From positions 62,001-126,000 of the forward strand of contig JAAYCX010000011.1 of NCBI GenBank assembly GCA_012729555.1: a stretch of DNA of 64,000 nucleotides, in the 5' to 3' direction. The DNA is from Acidobacteriota bacterium. Its GTDB lineage: Bacteria; Acidobacteriota; UBA6911. Within the stretch, counting starts at the first letter, position 1; every line of letters begins with the position of its first letter. A program made the position numbers and the translations under genes. Below, in pieces: positions 34,706 to 44,383 of the stretch. The notes below the pieces were generated by a model. The model was not told where the DNA came from, did no database searches, and was given only the letters and a program-made list of their open reading frames with translations.

Positions 34706-36130
34706 ATGCCTGGATTGAGTGCATTGAAAACCAGCCCGGGGGCGGTCGATTTCATCGACGACGAGTTCCTCGCCCGGCTCCTCGACCAGCCGGCGCCCGA
34801 CCGGGAGAGGGTCCGGGACATCGTCGCCAAGAGCCTGGGCAAGGAGCCGCTCACGGTCGAGGAGACGGCCGCGCTCCTGAGGGTCGAGGACCCGGAGCTG
34901 CTGGAGATGGTTTTCGGCACCGCCCGGACCCTGAAGGAAACGGTCTACGGCAACCGCATCGTGCTCTTCGCTCCGCTCTATGTCGGCAACGACTGCGTCA
35001 ACGATTGCGTCTACTGCGGCTTCCGGCGCAGCAACGGGCTGGCGGTACGCCGCACCCTCACGCCGGAGGAGCTGTGCGGGCAGGTCGAGCGGCTGGAGGA
35101 CGCGGGGCACAAGCGCCTCATCCTGGTTTTCGGCGAGCACCCCAGGTACGACGCGGAGTTCATAGCCGAACAGGTGCGCACCGTTTACGGGGTGCGGAAG
35201 GGGCACGGAGAGATCCGCAGGGTGAACATCAACGCGGCGCCGATGGACGTCGAGGGCTACCGCACCATCAAGGGCGCGGGGATCGGCACCTACCAGATCT
35301 TCCAGGAGACCTACCACCACGAGACCTACCGGCGCATGCACGCCCCCGGCACCCGCAAGGGGGACTACGCCTACCGCCTCGACGGGTTGAGCCGGGCCAT
35401 GGAGGGGGGGTGCGACGATGTCGGCATCGGCGTCCTGTTCGGCCTCTACGACTGGCGCTTCGAGGTCCTGGGGCTCGTGGCGCATGCGCAGTACCTGCGC
35501 CGGCGGCACGGCGTCGGTCCCCACACGATCAGTTTCCCGCGGCTGCGCCCGGCCAGCGGCGTGGAGTTCGCCGGGCTGGGACCGATCGCCGACGAGGACT
35601 TCCGCCGGGTGATCGCCACCTTGCGGCTGGCCGTCCCCTACACCGGGTTGATCCTGACGGCGCGGGAGCCGGCCGGGCTCCGGCGCGAACTCCTCAAGCT
35701 CGGGGTTTCCCAGATCGACGCCGGCAGCCGCATCGAGATCGGCGGGTACACCGAGCGGGACTCCCGCCAGGTCCGGGACCGGGAGCAGTTCGAGCTGGGG
35801 GACACCCGGGGCCTGGACGCGGTGATGCACGAACTGATCGAGGACGGGTACCTCCCCAGCTTCTGCACCGCCTGCTACCGGCTGGGCCGGACGGGCGAGC
35901 ACTTCATGGAATTCGCCATCCCCGGTTTCATCAAGCGCTACTGCACCCCCAACGCCCTCACGACGCTCCAGGAATACCTGGTGGACTACGCGTCGCCCGC
36001 GACGCGGCGGGCCGGGGAGGCCCTCATCCGCGCGGAGCTCGGGCGTCTCGGCCCGGAGGCCAACCGGGACGAGATCGAGAAACGGCTCGAGCGCATCCGG
36101 GCGACCGGCGACCGGGACCTCCTTTTCTGA
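34706..36130 (+). CDS. hydG: [FeFe] hydrogenase maturase HydG (radical SAM tyrosine lyase)
   Basis: A 474-residue protein with the radical SAM motif C97-x3-C101-x2-C104 (CVNDCVYC) and the HydG-specific C-terminal CX2CX22C (CTAC..C) that holds the auxiliary Fe-S cluster carrying the dangler iron. HydG cleaves tyrosine to give CO and cyanide and builds the Fe(CO)2CN synthon of the H-cluster. GVEFAGLGPI and ETYHHETYRRMHAPGTRKG match the family. The ATG at 34706 follows AGGG; the longer upstream frame overlaps the kinase. The gene follows the module 2 kinase by 11 bases and is followed by an aspartase-like gene and hydF. Confidence 0.95.
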   Translation: MPGLSALKTSPGAVDFIDDEFLARLLDQPAPDRERVRDIVAKSLGKEPLTVEETAALLRVEDPELLEMVFGTARTLKETVYGNRIVLFAPLYVGNDCVNDCVYCGFRRSNGLAVRRTLTPEELCGQVERLEDAGHKRLILVFGEHPRYDAEFIAEQVRTVYGVRKGHGEIRRVNINAAPMDVEGYRTIKGAGIGTYQIFQETYHHETYRRMHAPGTRKGDYAYRLDGLSRAMEGGCDDVGIGVLFGLYDWRFEVLGLVAHAQYLRRRHGVGPHTISFPRLRPASGVEFAGLGPIADEDFRRVIATLRLAVPYTGLILTAREPAGLRRELLKLGVSQIDAGSRIEIGGYTERDSRQVRDREQFELGDTRGLDAVMHELIEDGYLPSFCTACYRLGRTGEHFMEFAIPGFIKRYCTPNALTTLQEYLVDYASPATRRAGEALIRAELGRLGPEANRDEIEKRLERIRATGDRDLLF

Positions 36131-36153
36131 ATCCACGATCCGCGGGTGCCGAC

Positions 36154-37566
36154 ATGGAAGGTTGCCGGACGGAGCACGATCTGCTGGGGGAGCGGGAGGT
36201 GCCCGCGGACGCCCTCTACGGCATTCACACCGCCCGGGCCGTCGAGAATTTCCCGCTCTCGCTGCGCCCCGTCCACCCGGGGCTCGTGCGCGCCTACGGC
36301 GCGGTGAAGCTGGCGGCCGCGCGGGTGAACCACGAGCTGGGGCGCTGGGACGAAGGGACGTTCCGGGCCATCGAGGCCGCCTGCCTGGAGATGATGGACG
36401 GCGTGCTCGAGCGGCATATCCTGGTGGATGCGCTCCAGGGGGGCGCCGGCACCTCGACCAACATGAACGTCAACGAGGTGCTGGCCAACCGCGCCCTCCA
36501 GCTTCTGGGCGCCGCGCCGGGGGACTACGCGCGGATCCACCCGCTCGAGGACCTCAACCGGCACCAGTCCACCAACGACACCTACCCGACCGCGCTCCGG
36601 GTGGCCGCCATCTTTTCGCTCCGGCGCCTCCAGGGGGAGGTGATCGGCCTCCTCGGGGAGTTGCAGGCCAAGGAGCTCGAGCTGGCCCACGTGGTGAAGG
36701 TGGGCCGGACGGAGATGCAGGACGCCGTCCTGACGACGCTCGGGTGCGCGATGGGGGCCTGGGCGGAGGCGATCGCCCGCGACCGGTGGCGCATCTACAA
36801 GTGCGAGGAGCGCCTGCGGGTCGTGAACCTGGGGGGGACCGCCATCGGGACCGGGATCGCGGCGCCCAGGGAGTATATCTTCCGAGTGGTCGACCGCCTG
36901 CGGGAGATCACGGGGCTGGGGCTGGCCCGGGCGGAGAACCTGATCGACGGCACCCAGAACGCCGACGCCTACGTGGAGGTGGGCGGGATCCTGAAGGCCT
37001 CGGCCACCAACCTCGTGAAGATCGCGTCCGACCTGCGGCTCCTCTCTTCCGGCCCGGAGGCGGGGATCGGAGAAATCCGGCTGCCGGCCAGGCAGGCGGG
37101 CTCCTCGCTGATGCCGGCCAAGGTGAACCCCGTCATCCCGGAGGCGGTGACGCAGGCGGCGCTGCGGGTGGCGGCCAACGACCAGGCGCTCGGCCAGGCG
37201 TGCGGGATGGGGTGCCTCGAACTGAACCCGTTCCTGCCGCTGGTGGCGGACTGCCTGCTCGAAAACCTGGACCTGCTGGCCCGCGCCGCCCGGATCCTCG
37301 GCGAGCACTGCATCCGGGGCCTCCAGGCCGACGAGGCGCGCTGCCGCAGGGGGGTGGAGGCGTCCACCGCCGCGTGGACCGCCCTGGCGGACGCGCTCGG
37401 CTACGAAAGGGCGCAGGAGATCTCCCGCCTGGCCCGGGAGGAGGGGAAGAGCGTAAGGGAGGCGGCGCTCGCGCACGGGGGGCTGACCGAAGCGGAGTTC
37501 GAGGAGCTGATCGCGCCCGACAGTGTCACGCGGCTGGGGTCCCCGCCGCCGGAGGAAAAGGAATGA
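36154..37566 (+). CDS. aspA: Aspartate ammonia-lyase-like enzyme in the maturation operon
   Basis: A 470-residue member of the fumarase/aspartase superfamily. It has GGAGTSTNMNVNEV (about 106), TEMQDAV and the signature GSSLMPAKVNPV, near the usual GSSxMPxKxNP. Aspartase releases ammonia from aspartate, giving fumarate. The gene lies between hydG and hydF with a four-base overlap with hydF, an arrangement I recall from other [FeFe] maturation loci. Ammonia is thought to supply the bridgehead nitrogen of the H-cluster dithiolate, so a local ammonia source is plausible; that role is inference. Fumarase activity is less likely given MPAKVNP and context. Length is normal for the family. Confidence 0.85.
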   Translation: MEGCRTEHDLLGEREVPADALYGIHTARAVENFPLSLRPVHPGLVRAYGAVKLAAARVNHELGRWDEGTFRAIEAACLEMMDGVLERHILVDALQGGAGTSTNMNVNEVLANRALQLLGAAPGDYARIHPLEDLNRHQSTNDTYPTALRVAAIFSLRRLQGEVIGLLGELQAKELELAHVVKVGRTEMQDAVLTTLGCAMGAWAEAIARDRWRIYKCEERLRVVNLGGTAIGTGIAAPREYIFRVVDRLREITGLGLARAENLIDGTQNADAYVEVGGILKASATNLVKIASDLRLLSSGPEAGIGEIRLPARQAGSSLMPAKVNPVIPEAVTQAALRVAANDQALGQACGMGCLELNPFLPLVADCLLENLDLLARAARILGEHCIRGLQADEARCRRGVEASTAAWTALADALGYERAQEISRLAREEGKSVREAALAHGGLTEAEFEELIAPDSVTRLGSPPPEEKE

Positions 37567-38777
37567 AAGATACGCCCAGGGGGATGCGGCTTCACATCGG
37601 CCTGTTCGGCCGCCGCAACGTGGGGAAGTCCTCGCTGCTCAACGCCCTCACCCGCCAGGAGGTTTCGATCGTCTCCGATGTCCCGGGAACGACGACCGAC
37701 CCGGTGGAGAAGCCGATGGAACTGCTGCCGCTCGGGCCGGTGCTCTTCATCGACACGGCCGGGGTCGACGACGTGGGCGCCCTCGGGGAGTTGCGCGCGG
37801 GGCGCACCCGGCAGGTGTTCGAACGGACCGACCTCGGGATCCTGGTGGCCGAGGCGGGGAGCTGGGGTGAATTCGAGGAAAGGGTCCTCGGGGAACTCGA
37901 GAAGCGGAAGATGCCCGTCATCGTGGTGTTCAACAAGGCGGATATCGGAGCCGCCGCGCCCGAGACGCTGCGGGACCTCGAGGGGCGGAAGGTCCCCGTG
38001 GTGGCGACGGCCGCCCGGGAGGGGAGGGGACTGCCGCAGCTGCGCGAGGCCCTGATCCGGTCGGCCCCCGAGGCGTTCCTCGAGGCGCCGCCGATCCTGG
38101 GGGACCTGATCTCCCCGGGGGGGGTGGTGGTACTGGTGGTCCCCATCGACCTGGAGGCCCCGCGCGGCCGGCTCATCCTTCCGCAGGTGCAGTCGATCCG
38201 CGACGTGCTCGACCACGACTCCTGCTGCCTGGTGGTCAAGGAGCGGGAGCTCCGGGGCGCGCTCGACGGGCTGCGCGAGCCCCCGGCGCTGGTCGTAACC
38301 GACTCCCAGGTCTTTCTGAAGGTGGCCGGGGACGTGCCGGACAGCGTTCCCCTGACCTCCTTTTCCATCCTCTTCGCCCGGCTCAGGGGGGACCTGCGGG
38401 AGTTCGTGCGCGGGGTGAAGGCGGTGGACCGGCTGCGGCGGGGGGACCGCGTCCTGGTCCTGGAAGCGTGCACCCACCACCCCATCGGGGAGGACATCGG
38501 CAGGGTCAAGATCCCGCGCTGGCTCCGGCAATACACGGGGACCGACCTCGACTTCGTCCACCTGCAGGGGCACGATTTCCCGGAGGACATCGGGTCGTAC
38601 CGGCTGGTCGTCCACTGCGGCTCCTGCATGCTCAACCGCCGCGAGGTGATCTCCCGCATCCTGCGCTGCCGGGAGGCCGGGGTCCCCATCACCAACTACG
38701 GGGTGGCGATCACCTACTCGCTCGGGGCGCTCGACCGGGCGCTGTCCCCCTTCCCGGGACTCGGGCGCGGGCGCTGA
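37563..38777 (+). CDS. hydF: [FeFe] hydrogenase maturation GTPase HydF
   Basis: A 404-residue protein with an N-terminal GTPase (P-loop GRRNVGKSS near residue 16, DTAG switch, NKAD for guanine), a dimerisation region, and the C-terminal metal site CxHx45HCxxC (C303, H305, H351, C352, C355). HydF carries the 2Fe subcluster and inserts it into apo-hydrogenase. The start overlaps aspA by four bases (ATGA). HydE, the third maturase, is not in this window, so it must lie elsewhere or be absent. The gene ends ten bases before the convergent molybdenum hydroxylase gene. Confidence 0.95.
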   Translation: MKDTPRGMRLHIGLFGRRNVGKSSLLNALTRQEVSIVSDVPGTTTDPVEKPMELLPLGPVLFIDTAGVDDVGALGELRAGRTRQVFERTDLGILVAEAGSWGEFEERVLGELEKRKMPVIVVFNKADIGAAAPETLRDLEGRKVPVVATAAREGRGLPQLREALIRSAPEAFLEAPPILGDLISPGGVVVLVVPIDLEAPRGRLILPQVQSIRDVLDHDSCCLVVKERELRGALDGLREPPALVVTDSQVFLKVAGDVPDSVPLTSFSILFARLRGDLREFVRGVKAVDRLRRGDRVLVLEACTHHPIGEDIGRVKIPRWLRQYTGTDLDFVHLQGHDFPEDIGSYRLVVHCGSCMLNRREVISRILRCREAGVPITNYGVAITYSLGALDRALSPFPGLGRGR

Positions 38778-38786
38778 CGCCGGCCG

Positions 38787-41198
38787 TCAGATCCTGCCGA
38801 GCGCCCGGAGGACCCGGTCGGGGGTGGTGGGATAGTCCGTCACCCATTTCCCCGTGGCGTTGTAGATGGCCGAGGCCGTGATTCCCGACATGGCCGCCCC
38901 CACGTTTTCCCCCACCCCGAAGGCGCCGAAGGCGGCGTATCCCAGGTGGCTTTCGGTGACATGGCACTCGGCCGGCGGGTAGTCGTTCATCGTCCCGATG
39001 TGGTACTGGACCAGGTCGAAGTTCAGCCCCACCCCGGTGCGCGGGCACCAGATCTGCTCCTCCGTGGCGCTCCGGCCGAGCCCCATCACGGCGCCGCCGT
39101 ACTGCTGGGCCTGCGCCCCGCGCGGGTTGAACAGGTGGCCCACGTCGTTGACGCAGACGATGCGCGTGATGTCGACCATCCCGGTGTCGGTGTCGACCCC
39201 GGCCTCGATGAAATGCGCCTGGCGCCCCATGACGTACATCGTCGGATCGGGGCTGCCGTCGGCGGTCAGGCCGGCGACGGTTCCGACCACGGGATGCGAC
39301 AGGGCGGGGTCGGCGTCCCAGAAGATGTCGGCCACCTCGCGCACCGTCTTCCTGTTTTCCGGGCGGGCTTTTTCAAAAACGAAGCTGTCGCGGACGTCGA
39401 GCTCTTCCGGGCGGAGGCCGGGGAACGCCGGGGGCCCGGCGGTCTTGAAGAAGTGGCTCGAGTTGTACGCGGGGGTGGGCCTCACGGCGTACTCGAGGAT
39501 CTTCCGCTTCAGCTCGCGGGCGGCCATCACCAGCTGGGTGTTGATATAGGCGGTGGAAAAGGAACCGCCCGGCTGCCACATGTAGAAGCTCGAGTTGTCC
39601 GAGCGGCGCTCCTGGATCACGGTGTCCTCGTATTTCAGCCCCAGTTCCGAGGCGACGACGTGCCGGGCGCCCGATTCGGTGTCGGAGCCGATGTCGCTGC
39701 GGACCCCCACGATGGCCACGATGCCGTTGCGCAGCATCAGGCAGGCCCAGGACATCGCGCTCGCGGGCGCCTGCCAGGTCCATTCGAGCACCTGCATGAA
39801 GCCCATCCCGTGCATTTTCCCGTCCGGGAGCTTTCGCGCTCCCGGCGGGTGCCATTTCCGGTCCCAGTCGATGGCCGCTTTCCCCTTCTCGATCACCTCG
39901 CGCAGGCTCCAGCGTTCGGGGAAGCCGTTCTCCCTCTGGTAGCGCGTGACCCAGTCCCGGCCGCGACCCCGGCAGCCGTCGTTGCGCAGCGCCACCTCCG
40001 TGGGGTCGAGCCCGAACTCCGCGGCCACCCGGTCGAACATGACCCCATGAGGAACGCAGCTGTTGGCCCCGTGGCGGAAGCACATCTGGTGCCCCCGGTT
40101 GACGAGCCCCCACTCGCAGGTGGCCCGCAGATTGGGGATCGCCGTCCCCTCGTAGGTCTTCTCGGCCAGGGCGTTGCGCGGGCCGACGACGTGCCAGGCG
40201 GCGGAGGCGATGGTCCCGTCCTTTTTCGCGCCGACCTTGCAGCTGTAGGTGCCGCCGTCGTCCCCCAGGCAGTAATGGGCGCTCTCGTCGTACAGGAGCT
40301 TGACGGGTCTCCCCGCGGCCCGGCGGGCGAGGATGACGGCCAGCCGGGTGAAGCAGGCGGAGTAGGCGAGCCAGGCGAAGCCGCCGAACATGCACCCCTG
40401 GTAGGGGAGGGTGGCCGTGATTTTGGACCACTCGGCGAGGGGGGGGACCGGTCGCTCCCGGGCGTCGGATGGGTTGACGAGGAACCAGTGCGGGATGTCG
40501 TGGTGGTGGACCCAGAGGTCGACGAATTCCCCCCGCCACTGGGCGATGCATACCGCGGGTTCGGCTCCCACCGGCGCGTTCATTTCCCGGGTGACCTTGT
40601 ATTCGATCACTCCGTCCGCCGAGGCGAATCCCCGGTCCGGATCCCCGAGGGTGAAACTCTCCGCCAGGATGGTATTGGGTTCGCGGGCATGGGCGCCGGT
40701 GCGCCGGACGTCGGCCATGATCTTGGGCGCGTCCGGGCGGACCGACGCCTCCATGTCCAGGACGAAGGGGATCTCCTCCCATTCGATCTCGACGAGGCGC
40801 AGGGCGCGGTCGCAGACCTCCTCGCTGTCGGCCGTGATCGCGACCCCCATGGGGTGCTGGAAGAAGTCGGCCGTGCCGGGGAGGGTCAGGATGTCGTAGT
40901 TGCCCGAGATTTCGTACCAGGCCCCGGTGGCGCTGTCATGGGCGATGTCCGGGTCCGTGAATTGGAGCACGTCCCGGACCCCCGGGAGCGCCCGGGCGCG
41001 CGCGCAGTCGATGCGCGTGATCCGCGCGTGGGCGTATGGGGAGGTCAGGATCTTGGCGTACAGCATTCCCGGCAGCGTGATGTCGCGGGTGTAGGCCGCC
41101 CTCCCGCTCACCTTCTCCCAGGCGTCCTGCCGGCGGATGGACGGCTGCGTCTCGCGGTAGTTCTCCGGCACCTTCCATGTCCACGGCCTGTATTCCAT
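38787..41198 (-). CDS. Xanthine dehydrogenase-family molybdopterin-binding large subunit
   Basis: An 803-residue molybdenum hydroxylase large subunit. After an N-terminal hammerhead domain (KVSGRAAYTRDITLPGMLYAKIL) come molybdopterin-binding segments and the C-terminal GVGENVG, whose Glu corresponds to the catalytic base of the family. The start is the ATG at 41198, right after a run of G; the longer frame upstream overlaps the FAD oxidoreductase. The usual FAD and 2Fe-2S subunit genes are not adjacent. The middle region reads MFGGFAW rather than the common GGGFGGK. It sits eight bases after the FAD oxidoreductase gene in a three-gene operon. Substrate unknown; hydroxylation of an aromatic or heterocycle is a guess. 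Confidence 0.85.
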   Translation of the reverse strand: MEYRPWTWKVPENYRETQPSIRRQDAWEKVSGRAAYTRDITLPGMLYAKILTSPYAHARITRIDCARARALPGVRDVLQFTDPDIAHDSATGAWYEISGNYDILTLPGTADFFQHPMGVAITADSEEVCDRALRLVEIEWEEIPFVLDMEASVRPDAPKIMADVRRTGAHAREPNTILAESFTLGDPDRGFASADGVIEYKVTREMNAPVGAEPAVCIAQWRGEFVDLWVHHHDIPHWFLVNPSDARERPVPPLAEWSKITATLPYQGCMFGGFAWLAYSACFTRLAVILARRAAGRPVKLLYDESAHYCLGDDGGTYSCKVGAKKDGTIASAAWHVVGPRNALAEKTYEGTAIPNLRATCEWGLVNRGHQMCFRHGANSCVPHGVMFDRVAAEFGLDPTEVALRNDGCRGRGRDWVTRYQRENGFPERWSLREVIEKGKAAIDWDRKWHPPGARKLPDGKMHGMGFMQVLEWTWQAPASAMSWACLMLRNGIVAIVGVRSDIGSDTESGARHVVASELGLKYEDTVIQERRSDNSSFYMWQPGGSFSTAYINTQLVMAARELKRKILEYAVRPTPAYNSSHFFKTAGPPAFPGLRPEELDVRDSFVFEKARPENRKTVREVADIFWDADPALSHPVVGTVAGLTADGSPDPTMYVMGRQAHFIEAGVDTDTGMVDITRIVCVNDVGHLFNPRGAQAQQYGGAVMGLGRSATEEQIWCPRTGVGLNFDLVQYHIGTMNDYPPAECHVTESHLGYAAFGAFGVGENVGAAMSGITASAIYNATGKWVTDYPTTPDRVLRALGRI

Positions 41199-41206
41199 CC
41201 CCCCCC

Positions 41207-42637
41207 CTAGTGGGTCCCGAACAGGATCGCCCCCTGCTGCTGGAGGACCCGCTGGAGTTCCGTGACGTCCGCCTCGAGCCGCCTGGGAGTGATCCCCTGC
41301 CGGGCCGCGAGGGCGGCGGCGACGCCGGCGGCCTGGCCCGTGACCATGGTCAGCTGCAGGAAGCGCGCATAGGAGGCGCGGTCGGTCGAGATCGCCTTTC
41401 CCGCCACCAGCAGGTTCTCGACCTTCCGGGGGACCAGACAGCGGTAGGGAATGTCGTAGGAGCCGCCGTCCTTCGGGTAGACGATCCCCTCGTAGGAGAT
41501 GGTGTCGGCCGTGGCCACGTGCTTGGCCCCGCTGGCGAAGGAACTCTTCCCGATCACGTCGGGGAATTTGCGCGCCTCGGCCACGTCCCGCTTGCACAGG
41601 ACATAGTCCCCCACGATCCGCCGGCTCTCCCGGATCCTCAGCTCCGGGCAGACGCGCGTCAGGTAGGAGTTCTCGAACCCCGGCATGTAGCGCTTGATGA
41701 AGCCCAGGGCCATCCGGATCTGCGCCCGGCACTCGATTTCGCAGCGGGTCAGGTCGCGGACGTCGGTGGGGTCGGCGTTGCCCACCTGCGAGGAATGCTG
41801 GAAGTGCGCCTGCAGGACCCCGTTGTCGCGCGGCATGATGAAGAAGCCGACGCCGCTGTAGGGGTGGTACTCCCCGGCGGCCACCGCGCGATCCCGCAGG
41901 GTGTAATACCCCATGAAATTGGTGATTTCCCTCACGTCCTCGACCCGCCGGATCCTCTCGACGATCTCCTCTTCGGTCCAGCCGAGGTAGGGATGGGTCA
42001 TGGCGTTGAACTCGTAGGCCGCGTTCTCCTTGACGTAGCCCAGCACCTTGTCCCAGTCGACCCCGTCGACGGTGAAGGAGACCGTGTGCGGCTCCAGTTC
42101 CTCCTTCGGGACCTGGTCGCAGGGAGCCCCGGCGCGCGCGGCCAGCTCCCCCTCCCCGGTGCAGTCGATGACGACCTTGCCGAGCACGGTCTGCCGGCCG
42201 GAGGGGTTTTCCACGATCACCCCGCGGATCGCGTCCCCTTCCATGACCGCGTCCACGACCAGGGAATGGAGCAGCAGTTCGACGTTGTTTTCCGCCATCA
42301 TCTGGAAGACGAGGAGCCCCCAGTAATCGGGGTCCACCAGGGCGAAGCTGTAGCCGACGCGGAAATCGGGGGTGGTGTGGGGCAGGGCGTGCCCCGCCTC
42401 GAGCAGCCGCCGGTGGGTTTCCTCCATGATCCCGGCGATGATCTGCTCCCGGCGCGGGTTGAACATGTAGGCGTAGGCGAACCCCGGCGGCCCGGACACG
42501 TTCATCTGCCCCCCGAGGGCGCCGAGGCGCTCGATGAGGAGGGTGCGCGCGCCGGCGCGCGCGGACGCGATGGCGGCCGCTACCCCCGAGGTGCCCCCGC
42601 CGGCTATGACGACATCGTATTCACCGTATATTTCCAT
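41207..42637 (-). CDS. FAD-dependent oxidoreductase
   Basis: A 476-residue flavoprotein with an N-terminal dinucleotide fold VVIAGGGTSGVAAAIASARAG and a second FAD contact LLVAGKAISTD with a C-terminal TGQAAGVAAA, typical of the FAD_oxidored family (PF12831-like). The middle part, VIDCTGEGELAARAG, is another family mark. No signal peptide or Fe-S motif is seen. It is the middle gene of a minus-strand operon between a UGSC-like protein and a molybdenum hydroxylase large subunit, which suggests a shared pathway. The substrate cannot be told. Confidence 0.85.
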   Translation of the reverse strand: MEIYGEYDVVIAGGGTSGVAAAIASARAGARTLLIERLGALGGQMNVSGPPGFAYAYMFNPRREQIIAGIMEETHRRLLEAGHALPHTTPDFRVGYSFALVDPDYWGLLVFQMMAENNVELLLHSLVVDAVMEGDAIRGVIVENPSGRQTVLGKVVIDCTGEGELAARAGAPCDQVPKEELEPHTVSFTVDGVDWDKVLGYVKENAAYEFNAMTHPYLGWTEEEIVERIRRVEDVREITNFMGYYTLRDRAVAAGEYHPYSGVGFFIMPRDNGVLQAHFQHSSQVGNADPTDVRDLTRCEIECRAQIRMALGFIKRYMPGFENSYLTRVCPELRIRESRRIVGDYVLCKRDVAEARKFPDVIGKSSFASGAKHVATADTISYEGIVYPKDGGSYDIPYRCLVPRKVENLLVAGKAISTDRASYARFLQLTMVTGQAAGVAAALAARQGITPRRLEADVTELQRVLQQQGAILFGTH

Positions 42638-42670
42638 GCACTCTCTCCGCTGCGCCCCGCGGGCGGCTGG

Positions 42671-44383
42671 TCAGTTCCTGAATTGCTCGATGCTCCGCGC
42701 CGGGGTGCCGTCGGGCAGGGTCACCGGCAGGACGATCCCCTCGCTGTGCAGCGCCCAGGGGAGGATGACGCCCGAATGCCCCCCGCGCCCCCCGGCGACG
42801 ACCACCTCGATGTCCCGGGGCGACCGGGTCACCGGCATCGGGTGGCGGTGGGCGAACTGCGGGGGGCGCACCGGGACCAGCCCGCGGTTACGCACCATGG
42901 GCACGTCGTGGACCGCCCTCAGGTGGATATGCTCGCGGATGGCGTCCTTGGTGTACCCCGAGTTTTTCAGCATCATCCCGTGATCCGGGGTCAGGACCAG
43001 CACCAGCGGCCCCGGGATGTAGGCGTTGTTGGTCCCGAGCGTCGTGCAGCAGTCGGTCAGGGTGTCGAGCAGGTCGTGGCCGTCCAGGCTCAGGAAATCG
43101 ATAATGTCGTGTTGCGGCTCCGCCTTGAGCACGTAGACGGTCGTGGTCCGGGCGTCGCAGCGCTCCTCGTTGATCATCGGCCACTGGGCCAGGGAGGGCT
43201 CCTCGGCGAAGCAGTAGGTGAACTCCGCCTGGGAGGCGAGGCAGTCGAGGTCGCAGACGCCGGGGACCGCCCGGCACACGTCGAGGATGACGAGGTTGAC
43301 CGCCCGCCCGATGGTGGCGTTGGCCGGATACCCGGGACCCAGGCACCCCTGCCGGCCCGAGATCCCGATCTCCCGGGCGATCGGGCCGCTGACCAGGACG
43401 AGGTTCCCCCCGGGGTGGGACGTCGTCACCGACTGCAGCAGGTTGTAGCGCGGGTCGGCCATCGCCCGGAACGCGGCCACCAGGACCGGCATCGCCTCGG
43501 GCCGGCACCCGGCCATCACCGCCGCGACGGCGACGTCGCGGACCGTGACGTCCTTGCCCGCGGGTCCGACTTCGCGCCAGAGGGGGGTTCCCGGCGCGAA
43601 GGGGCAGCAGGAGAACATCCTTTCGAGGCGTGCCGCGGTCGGGGGGATGACCGGCAGGCCGTCCCCCAGGTGTTCCCGGTCGAGGTACTCCATGATCTCT
43701 TCCATGTAGCAGCCCGGTTCGTACACCCTCTCCTCGCGCGGCTCGATCCCCGCGGTGACGGGAAGCAGCCCGTCGGCGGCGGGGGGGACGAGGTCCATCT
43801 TGAAATCGATGCGGGCGGCCTCCCGGACCCGCTCGGGCGTCCCCGCGAGCGAGTCCATGATGAAGTCCCACTTGAGGTCGACCTGGGCCCGCACCTCTTC
43901 CCGGGTGCTGGCCTGGTAGATGTCGATCTTGCACAGGCAGAGGTTCCCCGCGCGGTAGACCGCGACCCCCTCGACCAGGTCCCCGCCGGGGGGGGCTGTG
44001 ATGTAGACGCTCGGGATGCCCAGCTTCTCCAGCGCGATGGTGACGATGCAGGTCGCGGGGGAGGTCCCCATGTCGCCGAGGGCCACGACGGCGGCCGCCG
44101 GCTTTTCCCGGGCCAGCATCGCCGCGTACGCCTCCAGTTCCCGGGTGTCCTTGCCGCGCACGGTTTCCCGGTAATCGACGAAATTCGAGATTCCCAGCCC
44201 GCGGAGGCGCTCCCGGATGCGGACGAAGACTTCGTCGTAGTTGCAGAAGCCCAGTTTCGTGTTGTCGTAAAAGAGAATTTTGCCCCGCCTGAGGTCCTCG
44301 ATGCCGCCGCGGGGCGCCAGGGGAACGGTCGGCCGTTCCTGGTGCCCGCGCGGATCGAGGAGCGGCGCCAGTTTTTTATCCAT
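42671..44383 (-). CDS. Two-domain protein, UGSC-like N-terminal half without the UGSC motif
   Basis: A 570-residue protein with two parts. The N-terminal half (about 30-190) resembles the UGSC family of selenoprotein-like proteins: ILFYDNTK at the front and GDMGTSPATC followed by ALEKLGIPSV where relatives have GDUGSCT and LExRGIPT, so the redox U/C-G-S-C is replaced. The C-terminal half (about 230-570) has DGLPVIPPTAARLERM, VRDVAVAAVMAGCRPE and GCLGPGYPANATIGRAVNLV, a family I know only as a companion of UGSC proteins. It is the first gene of the minus-strand operon with an FAD oxidoreductase and a molybdenum hydroxylase. Function unknown; family recall is not firm. Confidence 0.65.
   Translation of the reverse strand: MDKKLAPLLDPRGHQERPTVPLAPRGGIEDLRRGKILFYDNTKLGFCNYDEVFVRIRERLRGLGISNFVDYRETVRGKDTRELEAYAAMLAREKPAAAVVALGDMGTSPATCIVTIALEKLGIPSVYITAPPGGDLVEGVAVYRAGNLCLCKIDIYQASTREEVRAQVDLKWDFIMDSLAGTPERVREAARIDFKMDLVPPAADGLLPVTAGIEPREERVYEPGCYMEEIMEYLDREHLGDGLPVIPPTAARLERMFSCCPFAPGTPLWREVGPAGKDVTVRDVAVAAVMAGCRPEAMPVLVAAFRAMADPRYNLLQSVTTSHPGGNLVLVSGPIAREIGISGRQGCLGPGYPANATIGRAVNLVILDVCRAVPGVCDLDCLASQAEFTYCFAEEPSLAQWPMINEERCDARTTTVYVLKAEPQHDIIDFLSLDGHDLLDTLTDCCTTLGTNNAYIPGPLVLVLTPDHGMMLKNSGYTKDAIREHIHLRAVHDVPMVRNRGLVPVRPPQFAHRHPMPVTRSPRDIEVVVAGGRGGHSGVILPWALHSEGIVLPVTLPDGTPARSIEQFRN

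Follow-up and report, generated by a model that had tools for sequence, protein, structure and literature searches.

A Sec/Cys-free UGSC-like protein and its flavoprotein partner in a three-gene operon with a molybdenum hydroxylase from an Acidobacteriota bacterium

The stretch of DNA analysed here (the window; 64,000 nucleotides, G000:C11:62001-126000) stems from the 3.83 Mb genome of an Acidobacteriota bacterium assembled in 98 contigs. It carries an operon of three minus-strand genes, running from 44383 to 38787, that encode a UGSC-like protein, a flavoprotein and the large subunit of a molybdenum hydroxylase, with intergenic gaps of 33 bases between the first and second gene and 8 bases between the second and third. 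The initial annotation had placed this operon correctly, and the gene order is conserved in the genus; the identical order in the genomes G003, G004, G006, G007 and G008 rules out an assembly artefact. Purifying selection acts on each of the three genes, with ratios of non-synonymous to synonymous substitution rates (dN/dS) of 0.06-0.18 against genus genomes with dS <0.7; the comparison partners were G004, G006 and, except for the hydroxylase, G005, dS being saturated in more distant pairs. Promoter and terminator scans gave scores at shuffle level only.

The first gene (42671..44383) encodes a two-domain protein of 570 amino acids without selenocysteine (Sec), as identified by profiles and orthologues. 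Its N-terminal domain (residues 8-129; 43997..44362) passes the cut-off of the UGSC family PF24696 by 2 bits (27.0 vs 25 bits), while the protein fails that of the NF041046 equivalog by 104 bits (20.8 vs 125 bits). Where relatives have Sec/Cys-x-x-C, the alignment reads D-M-G-T-S (residues 104-108; 44060..44074, at the D-U/C-G-S-C position), so that the U/C-x-x-C redox motif is absent and the loss of U/C-G-S-C described in the initial annotation is borne out. The C-terminal domain (residues 227-570; 42674..43705), which is marked by DGLPxxPPT ... GPGxxANATIGRA and belongs to no Pfam family, retains its conserved residues in the alignment despite the loss of the motif. Decay of the gene can be ruled out by its 570 open codons, a dN/dS of 0.06-0.15 (G004, G006, G005) and the fixation of DMGTS across phyla. 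Homology to GrdB was likewise rejected, as profiles give no support: PF07355 (glycine reductase selenoprotein B) did not match the protein at E 0.1, and its one match in the same genome is below cut-off and lies on contig C81, outside every UGSC locus.

Structure prediction gave a model of the protein with a predicted local distance difference test score (pLDDT) of 84.9, for which Foldseek found no PDB match at E <=0.001. In a second comparison, which covered the N-terminal domain (model residues 28-192), this domain was Rossmann-like, with a best Z of 9.6 over 131 residues at 3.2 Å. The predicted fold of the UGSC domain is thus contrary to the thioredoxin-like fold guessed in passages of PMC2398784, which also describe a UGSC/Unknown_1 fusion. 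The Rossmann-like match, obtained with a model, carries no information on function.

How does this protein relate to the other UGSC proteins of the genome? PF24696 is found at 19 loci, 18 of which (L019-L035, L037) have one in-frame TGA each, the window gene being the only one with none. All 18 paralogues share the two-domain layout and read U-x-x-C at the motif column; their motifs include GHUSSC, GDUGSC and GGUDGC and are therefore U-x-x-C rather than strictly UGSC. A tRNA-Sec is present (72.4 bits; gathering score 47). Eighteen UGSC-family genes with an in-frame TGA in one genome amount to a large selenoprotein expansion, and several of the predicted Sec paralogues appear by eye to have signal peptides.

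Orthologues of the window protein occur at 82-97% identity in seven of the nine other genomes of the genus, all of which read DMGTS. Outside the genus, the 149 genomes searched held no match above 36%. In a collection scan, the best 80 of 559 matches included orthologues at 64-69% from gut-type Clostridia, Chloroflexota and a metagenome-assembled genome of Dehalococcoidia, and one at 49% from Serratia marcescens. A plasmid search added matches on pSPTER of Sporomusa termitida (67.8%) and pVEu of Vibrio europaeus (50.3%). Outside the genus, DMGTS was read at L193-L199, L201, L202, in Sporomusa (L313) and in Vibrio (L314); L200 lacks the N-terminus, hence the motif is not readable there. DMGTS is thus present in every readable member of the clade, from Clostridia, Chloroflexota, Sporomusa termitida, Serratia and Vibrio to eight genomes of the genus. 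In a tree of 54 rows, a 100/100 branch unites the 15 DMGTS rows and separates them from the 18 Sec paralogues of the window's genome, and the tree rejects an origin of the DMGTS gene from these paralogues. Two full-length UGSC homologues in G007 also lack Sec/Cys at the motif, reading GAPSSST (L099, contig C21) and GMSGGST (L087, contig C100); unlike the DMGTS family, they are possible cases of independent motif loss.

The second gene (41207..42637) encodes a flavin adenine dinucleotide (FAD)-dependent oxidoreductase of 476 amino acids that matches PF12831 (FAD_oxidored) over nearly its full length (322.4 bits vs a cut-off of 27) and has an N-terminal GGGTSG dinucleotide motif. Its model is weak (pLDDT 64.9), and a fold search led to flavoproteins of the geranylgeranyl-reductase and halogenase types. 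It differs from other members of PF12831 in that its subfamily is tied to the DMGTS clade, with no close relative solved. Among 20 clade loci, the flavoprotein gene adjoins the UGSC-like gene in 15 (the window, G003-G008, L193-L196, L198, L200, L202 and Sporomusa L313), is absent from three and is undecidable at contig ends in two (L086, L201), giving 15 of the 18 loci with usable flanks. By comparison, no flavoprotein homologue was found at E 1e-12 in 69 other loci with the C-terminal domain (L203-L271), whose flanks varied in length. Fisher's p for the pairing, 3e-14, was computed on 14/16, before the two plasmid loci joined the count. Weaker homologues occur in one of the 17 other scanned UGSC loci of the same genome (31%) and, outside the 69-locus set, in a UGSC C-domain locus of G143 (L090; 32%). 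The adjacency in 15/18 vs 0/69 loci indicates that the conserved unit consists of the UGSC-like gene and the flavoprotein gene, with the hydroxylase as an addition of the genus.

This pairing invites the idea of a swapped redox centre, in which the UGSC-like protein and the flavoprotein would form one enzyme and the flavin would do the electron-transfer job of Sec/Cys. The specificity of the adjacency for the clade without Sec/Cys speaks for such a swap, as does the retention of the conserved residues in the C-terminal domain. However, the members of the DMGTS clade that branch off deepest in the tree (first Serratia together with Vibrio, then Dehalococcoidia L197) all come without the flavoprotein, suggesting that the motif was probably lost before the pairing arose, and we consider the swap unlikely.

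The third gene (38787..41198) encodes a protein of 803 amino acids with all the catalytic-subunit domains of the xanthine oxidase family above cut-off (Ald_Xan_dh_C, 69.8 bits; MoCoBD_1, 45.8 bits; MoCoBD_2, 97.8 bits). A longer open reading frame of 981 amino acids is a start-site artefact, since coding potential and homology begin at MEYRPW (41198). The best sequence match among solved structures is the alpha subunit of 4-hydroxybenzoyl-CoA reductase (1rm6_A), followed by the large chain of carbon monoxide (CO) dehydrogenase. The window protein differs from the family in having no adjoining small or medium subunit, in belonging to a genus-specific subfamily and in its glycine-rich loop, where QGCMFGGFAW (residues 267-276; 40371..40400) replaces the canonical GGGFG-type sequence throughout the subfamily; the initial annotation had rightly noted an altered GGGFGGK-type region. 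Glu764 is retained in GVGEN (38904..38918) and aligns with the GxGE column of other large subunits, whose glutamate we take to be the catalytic one.

The distribution of the hydroxylase is narrow: at E 1e-60, no other genus among the 149 genomes gave a match, nor did the plasmid search. The gene directly follows the other two in G000, G003, G004, G006, G007 and G008. In G009 the UGSC-like gene lies at one contig end and the pair of flavoprotein and hydroxylase genes at another, G005 has the hydroxylase orthologue on a different contig from the first two genes, and in G001 the flavoprotein is followed first by a second hydroxylase set and then by the hydroxylase. The co-occurrence in other genomes revealed by the neighbourhood survey is therefore strong for the first two genes, while the third is restricted to the genus.

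Where, then, would the electrons of the hydroxylase go? No Fer2_2 or FAD_binding_5 gene is present on contig C11, in agreement with the initial annotation; its picture of an orphan holds only for this neighbourhood, as subunits are encoded elsewhere in the genome. On contig C65, the genes for a 224-aa small and a 320-aa medium subunit form a unit of their own that lacks a large subunit, the small subunit having by eye a twin-arginine-type N-terminus. The C65 pair is orthologous to a pair in G005, where a [2Fe-2S] subunit with a leader of the twin-arginine translocation (Tat) type and an FAD subunit adjoin the hydroxylase orthologue, which falls into one 100/100 clade with the window hydroxylase. 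Free-standing orthologues of the pair also occur in G001, G003, G004 and G006, and the small subunit is found at >=64% in nine of ten genus genomes, missing from G002 (76% complete). The window's genome contains four small-subunit genes: those on C80 and C75 lie beside their own large subunits, that on C97 shares a reading frame with its large subunit, and the fourth is on C65. Seven large subunits (the window gene, L130, L131, two in L132, L133 and L134) have no adjoining small or medium subunit within the stretches read. Two further hydroxylase parts, at L041 (15831-17297; 489 aa N-terminal, at the end of C4) and L056 (3-890; 295 aa C-terminal, at the start of C13), could be the two ends of a single gene that the assembly broke apart.

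The initial annotation had instead proposed the flavoprotein as the electron acceptor of the hydroxylase. The two genes do adjoin in the genus, and in G001 both are present without the UGSC-like gene. However, the flavoprotein is kept in lineages without an adjoining hydroxylase, PF12831 differs from the FAD-subunit family of hydroxylases, and the genome encodes [2Fe-2S] and FAD subunits of the conventional kind, which in G005 lie beside the orthologue. Its pairing with the UGSC-like gene across phyla, together with the subunit pair in G005 and on C65, makes this role highly unlikely. A second alternative is that the hydroxylase has given up redox catalysis and that this molybdopterin-binding paralogue, with its changed cofactor loop, serves as a lyase, a binding protein or a regulator. 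The clade-wide occurrence of QGCMFGGFAW and similar loops would fit, as would the seven partnerless large subunits, some of which belong to a subfamily in which the GxGE glutamate is replaced (L130, L132_5368, L134). Yet the window clade retains the active-site glutamate and evolves under purifying selection, and electron-transfer subunits still adjoin the G005 copy, leaving a non-redox role quite improbable.

The neighbours of the clade loci are varied and mostly catabolic, including transporters and hydantoinase-type genes, and point, from gene content, to small-molecule catabolism with no single substrate, in keeping with the degradative setting suggested in the initial annotation. UroD-family genes occur in 6/19 scanned clade loci vs 0/69 others, one of the six (L196) matching only weakly and in part, with no hit in Pfam, and aconitase X occurs in 3/19 (adjoining the UGSC-like copies of Serratia, Vibrio and Sporomusa) vs 1/69. 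It was not found in six sister loci of the genus (L080-L085), the window's own flanks lying outside that scan. L194 has a UbiX-type flavoprotein, UbiD and UroD as neighbours, L193 an amidohydrolase, an Asp/Glu/hydantoin racemase and a carbamoylase, and L198 an amidase. A 4Fe-4S dicluster protein and an enzyme of the aldehyde-ferredoxin-oxidoreductase type precede the operon in G003, G007 and G009. Passages of PMC11495376 list S. termitida among the predicted users of trans-aconitate and make no mention of the operon genes; aconitase X is also treated in passages of PMC8184944.

Sequence comparison establishes the operon structure, the loss of the motif in one clade, the pairing across phyla, the restriction of the third gene to the genus and the free-standing subunit pair. 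In our preferred reading, about which confidence and doubt are evenly balanced, the operon consists of a catabolic cassette of two genes that has spread horizontally and to which the genus added a molybdenum hydroxylase served by a shared [2Fe-2S]/FAD pair. The plasmid-borne copies in Sporomusa termitida and Vibrio europaeus would count for a spreading cassette. Judging by synteny, the three genes likely act in one pathway, the substrate of which probably differs between lineages. The UGSC-like protein would use its conserved C-terminal domain to bind and transform the substrate, no thiol or selenol taking part in redox chemistry at the UGSC site, and the flavoprotein would oxidise or reduce the substrate or product of this protein. 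The hydroxylase would then hydroxylate a pathway intermediate with water and hand its electrons on to the shared [2Fe-2S]/FAD pair instead of the flavoprotein.

Several observations weigh against this reading. In Serratia (L199), Vibrio (L314) and Dehalococcoidia (L197), the DMGTS protein lacks its flavoprotein partner, and G001 has the flavoprotein and the hydroxylase without the UGSC-like gene. Further medium-subunit genes on C39 and C92, 95% alike, are cut by contig ends, so that C65 may not hold the sole pair, and the proposed sharing of an electron-transfer pair draws on gene order in one genome and on counts. Moreover, no set of neighbours is constant outside the first two genes, and the substrate can therefore not be read from context.

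A more far-reaching version, which we offer tentatively and as somewhat less than probable, combines two ideas: a non-thiol, Sec/Cys-free UGSC enzyme with new chemistry and its own flavoprotein, encoded on a cassette moving between anaerobes of several phyla, and modular hydroxylases in the genus, in which one or a few free [2Fe-2S]/FAD pairs would act as a switchboard for at least seven interchangeable catalytic subunits. If true, a shared electron-transfer pair would explain the numerous orphan hydroxylase large subunits of the genus and change the annotation of such genes. UGSC is a large selenoprotein family without known function. The window protein differs from it in the missing U/C-G-S-C, the score below the equivalog cut-off, its own clade and a dedicated flavoprotein partner, and the presence of this Sec/Cys-free branch with a fixed partner in a cultured acetogen, Sporomusa termitida, offers a tractable route to the role of the C-terminal domain. 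Our literature search on the UGSC protein family turned up only bioinformatic papers on selenium or trace elements (functions are called largely uncharacterised in passages of PMC13188914), and that on modular or orphan hydroxylase architectures yielded nothing useful.

Some further observations concern the surroundings of the operon and of other UGSC genes. On the opposite strand of the window (34724-38777), genes that by eye are HydG-like, aspartase-like and HydF-like converge on the operon and stop 9 bases short of it. The Serratia (L199) and Vibrio (L314) loci share the order aconitase X, DUF126-type partner, UGSC-like gene and enolase homologue, the extra enolase being an odd component of an aconitase X cluster. 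Finally, at L094, L095 and L096 (G144, G136 and G119), genes for a UGSC N-terminal and a C-terminal domain adjoin a CO-dehydrogenase-like set, with the large subunit identified by BLAST (24%) and the remaining subunits by eye; this is a separate UGSC/molybdenum-hydroxylase neighbourhood.

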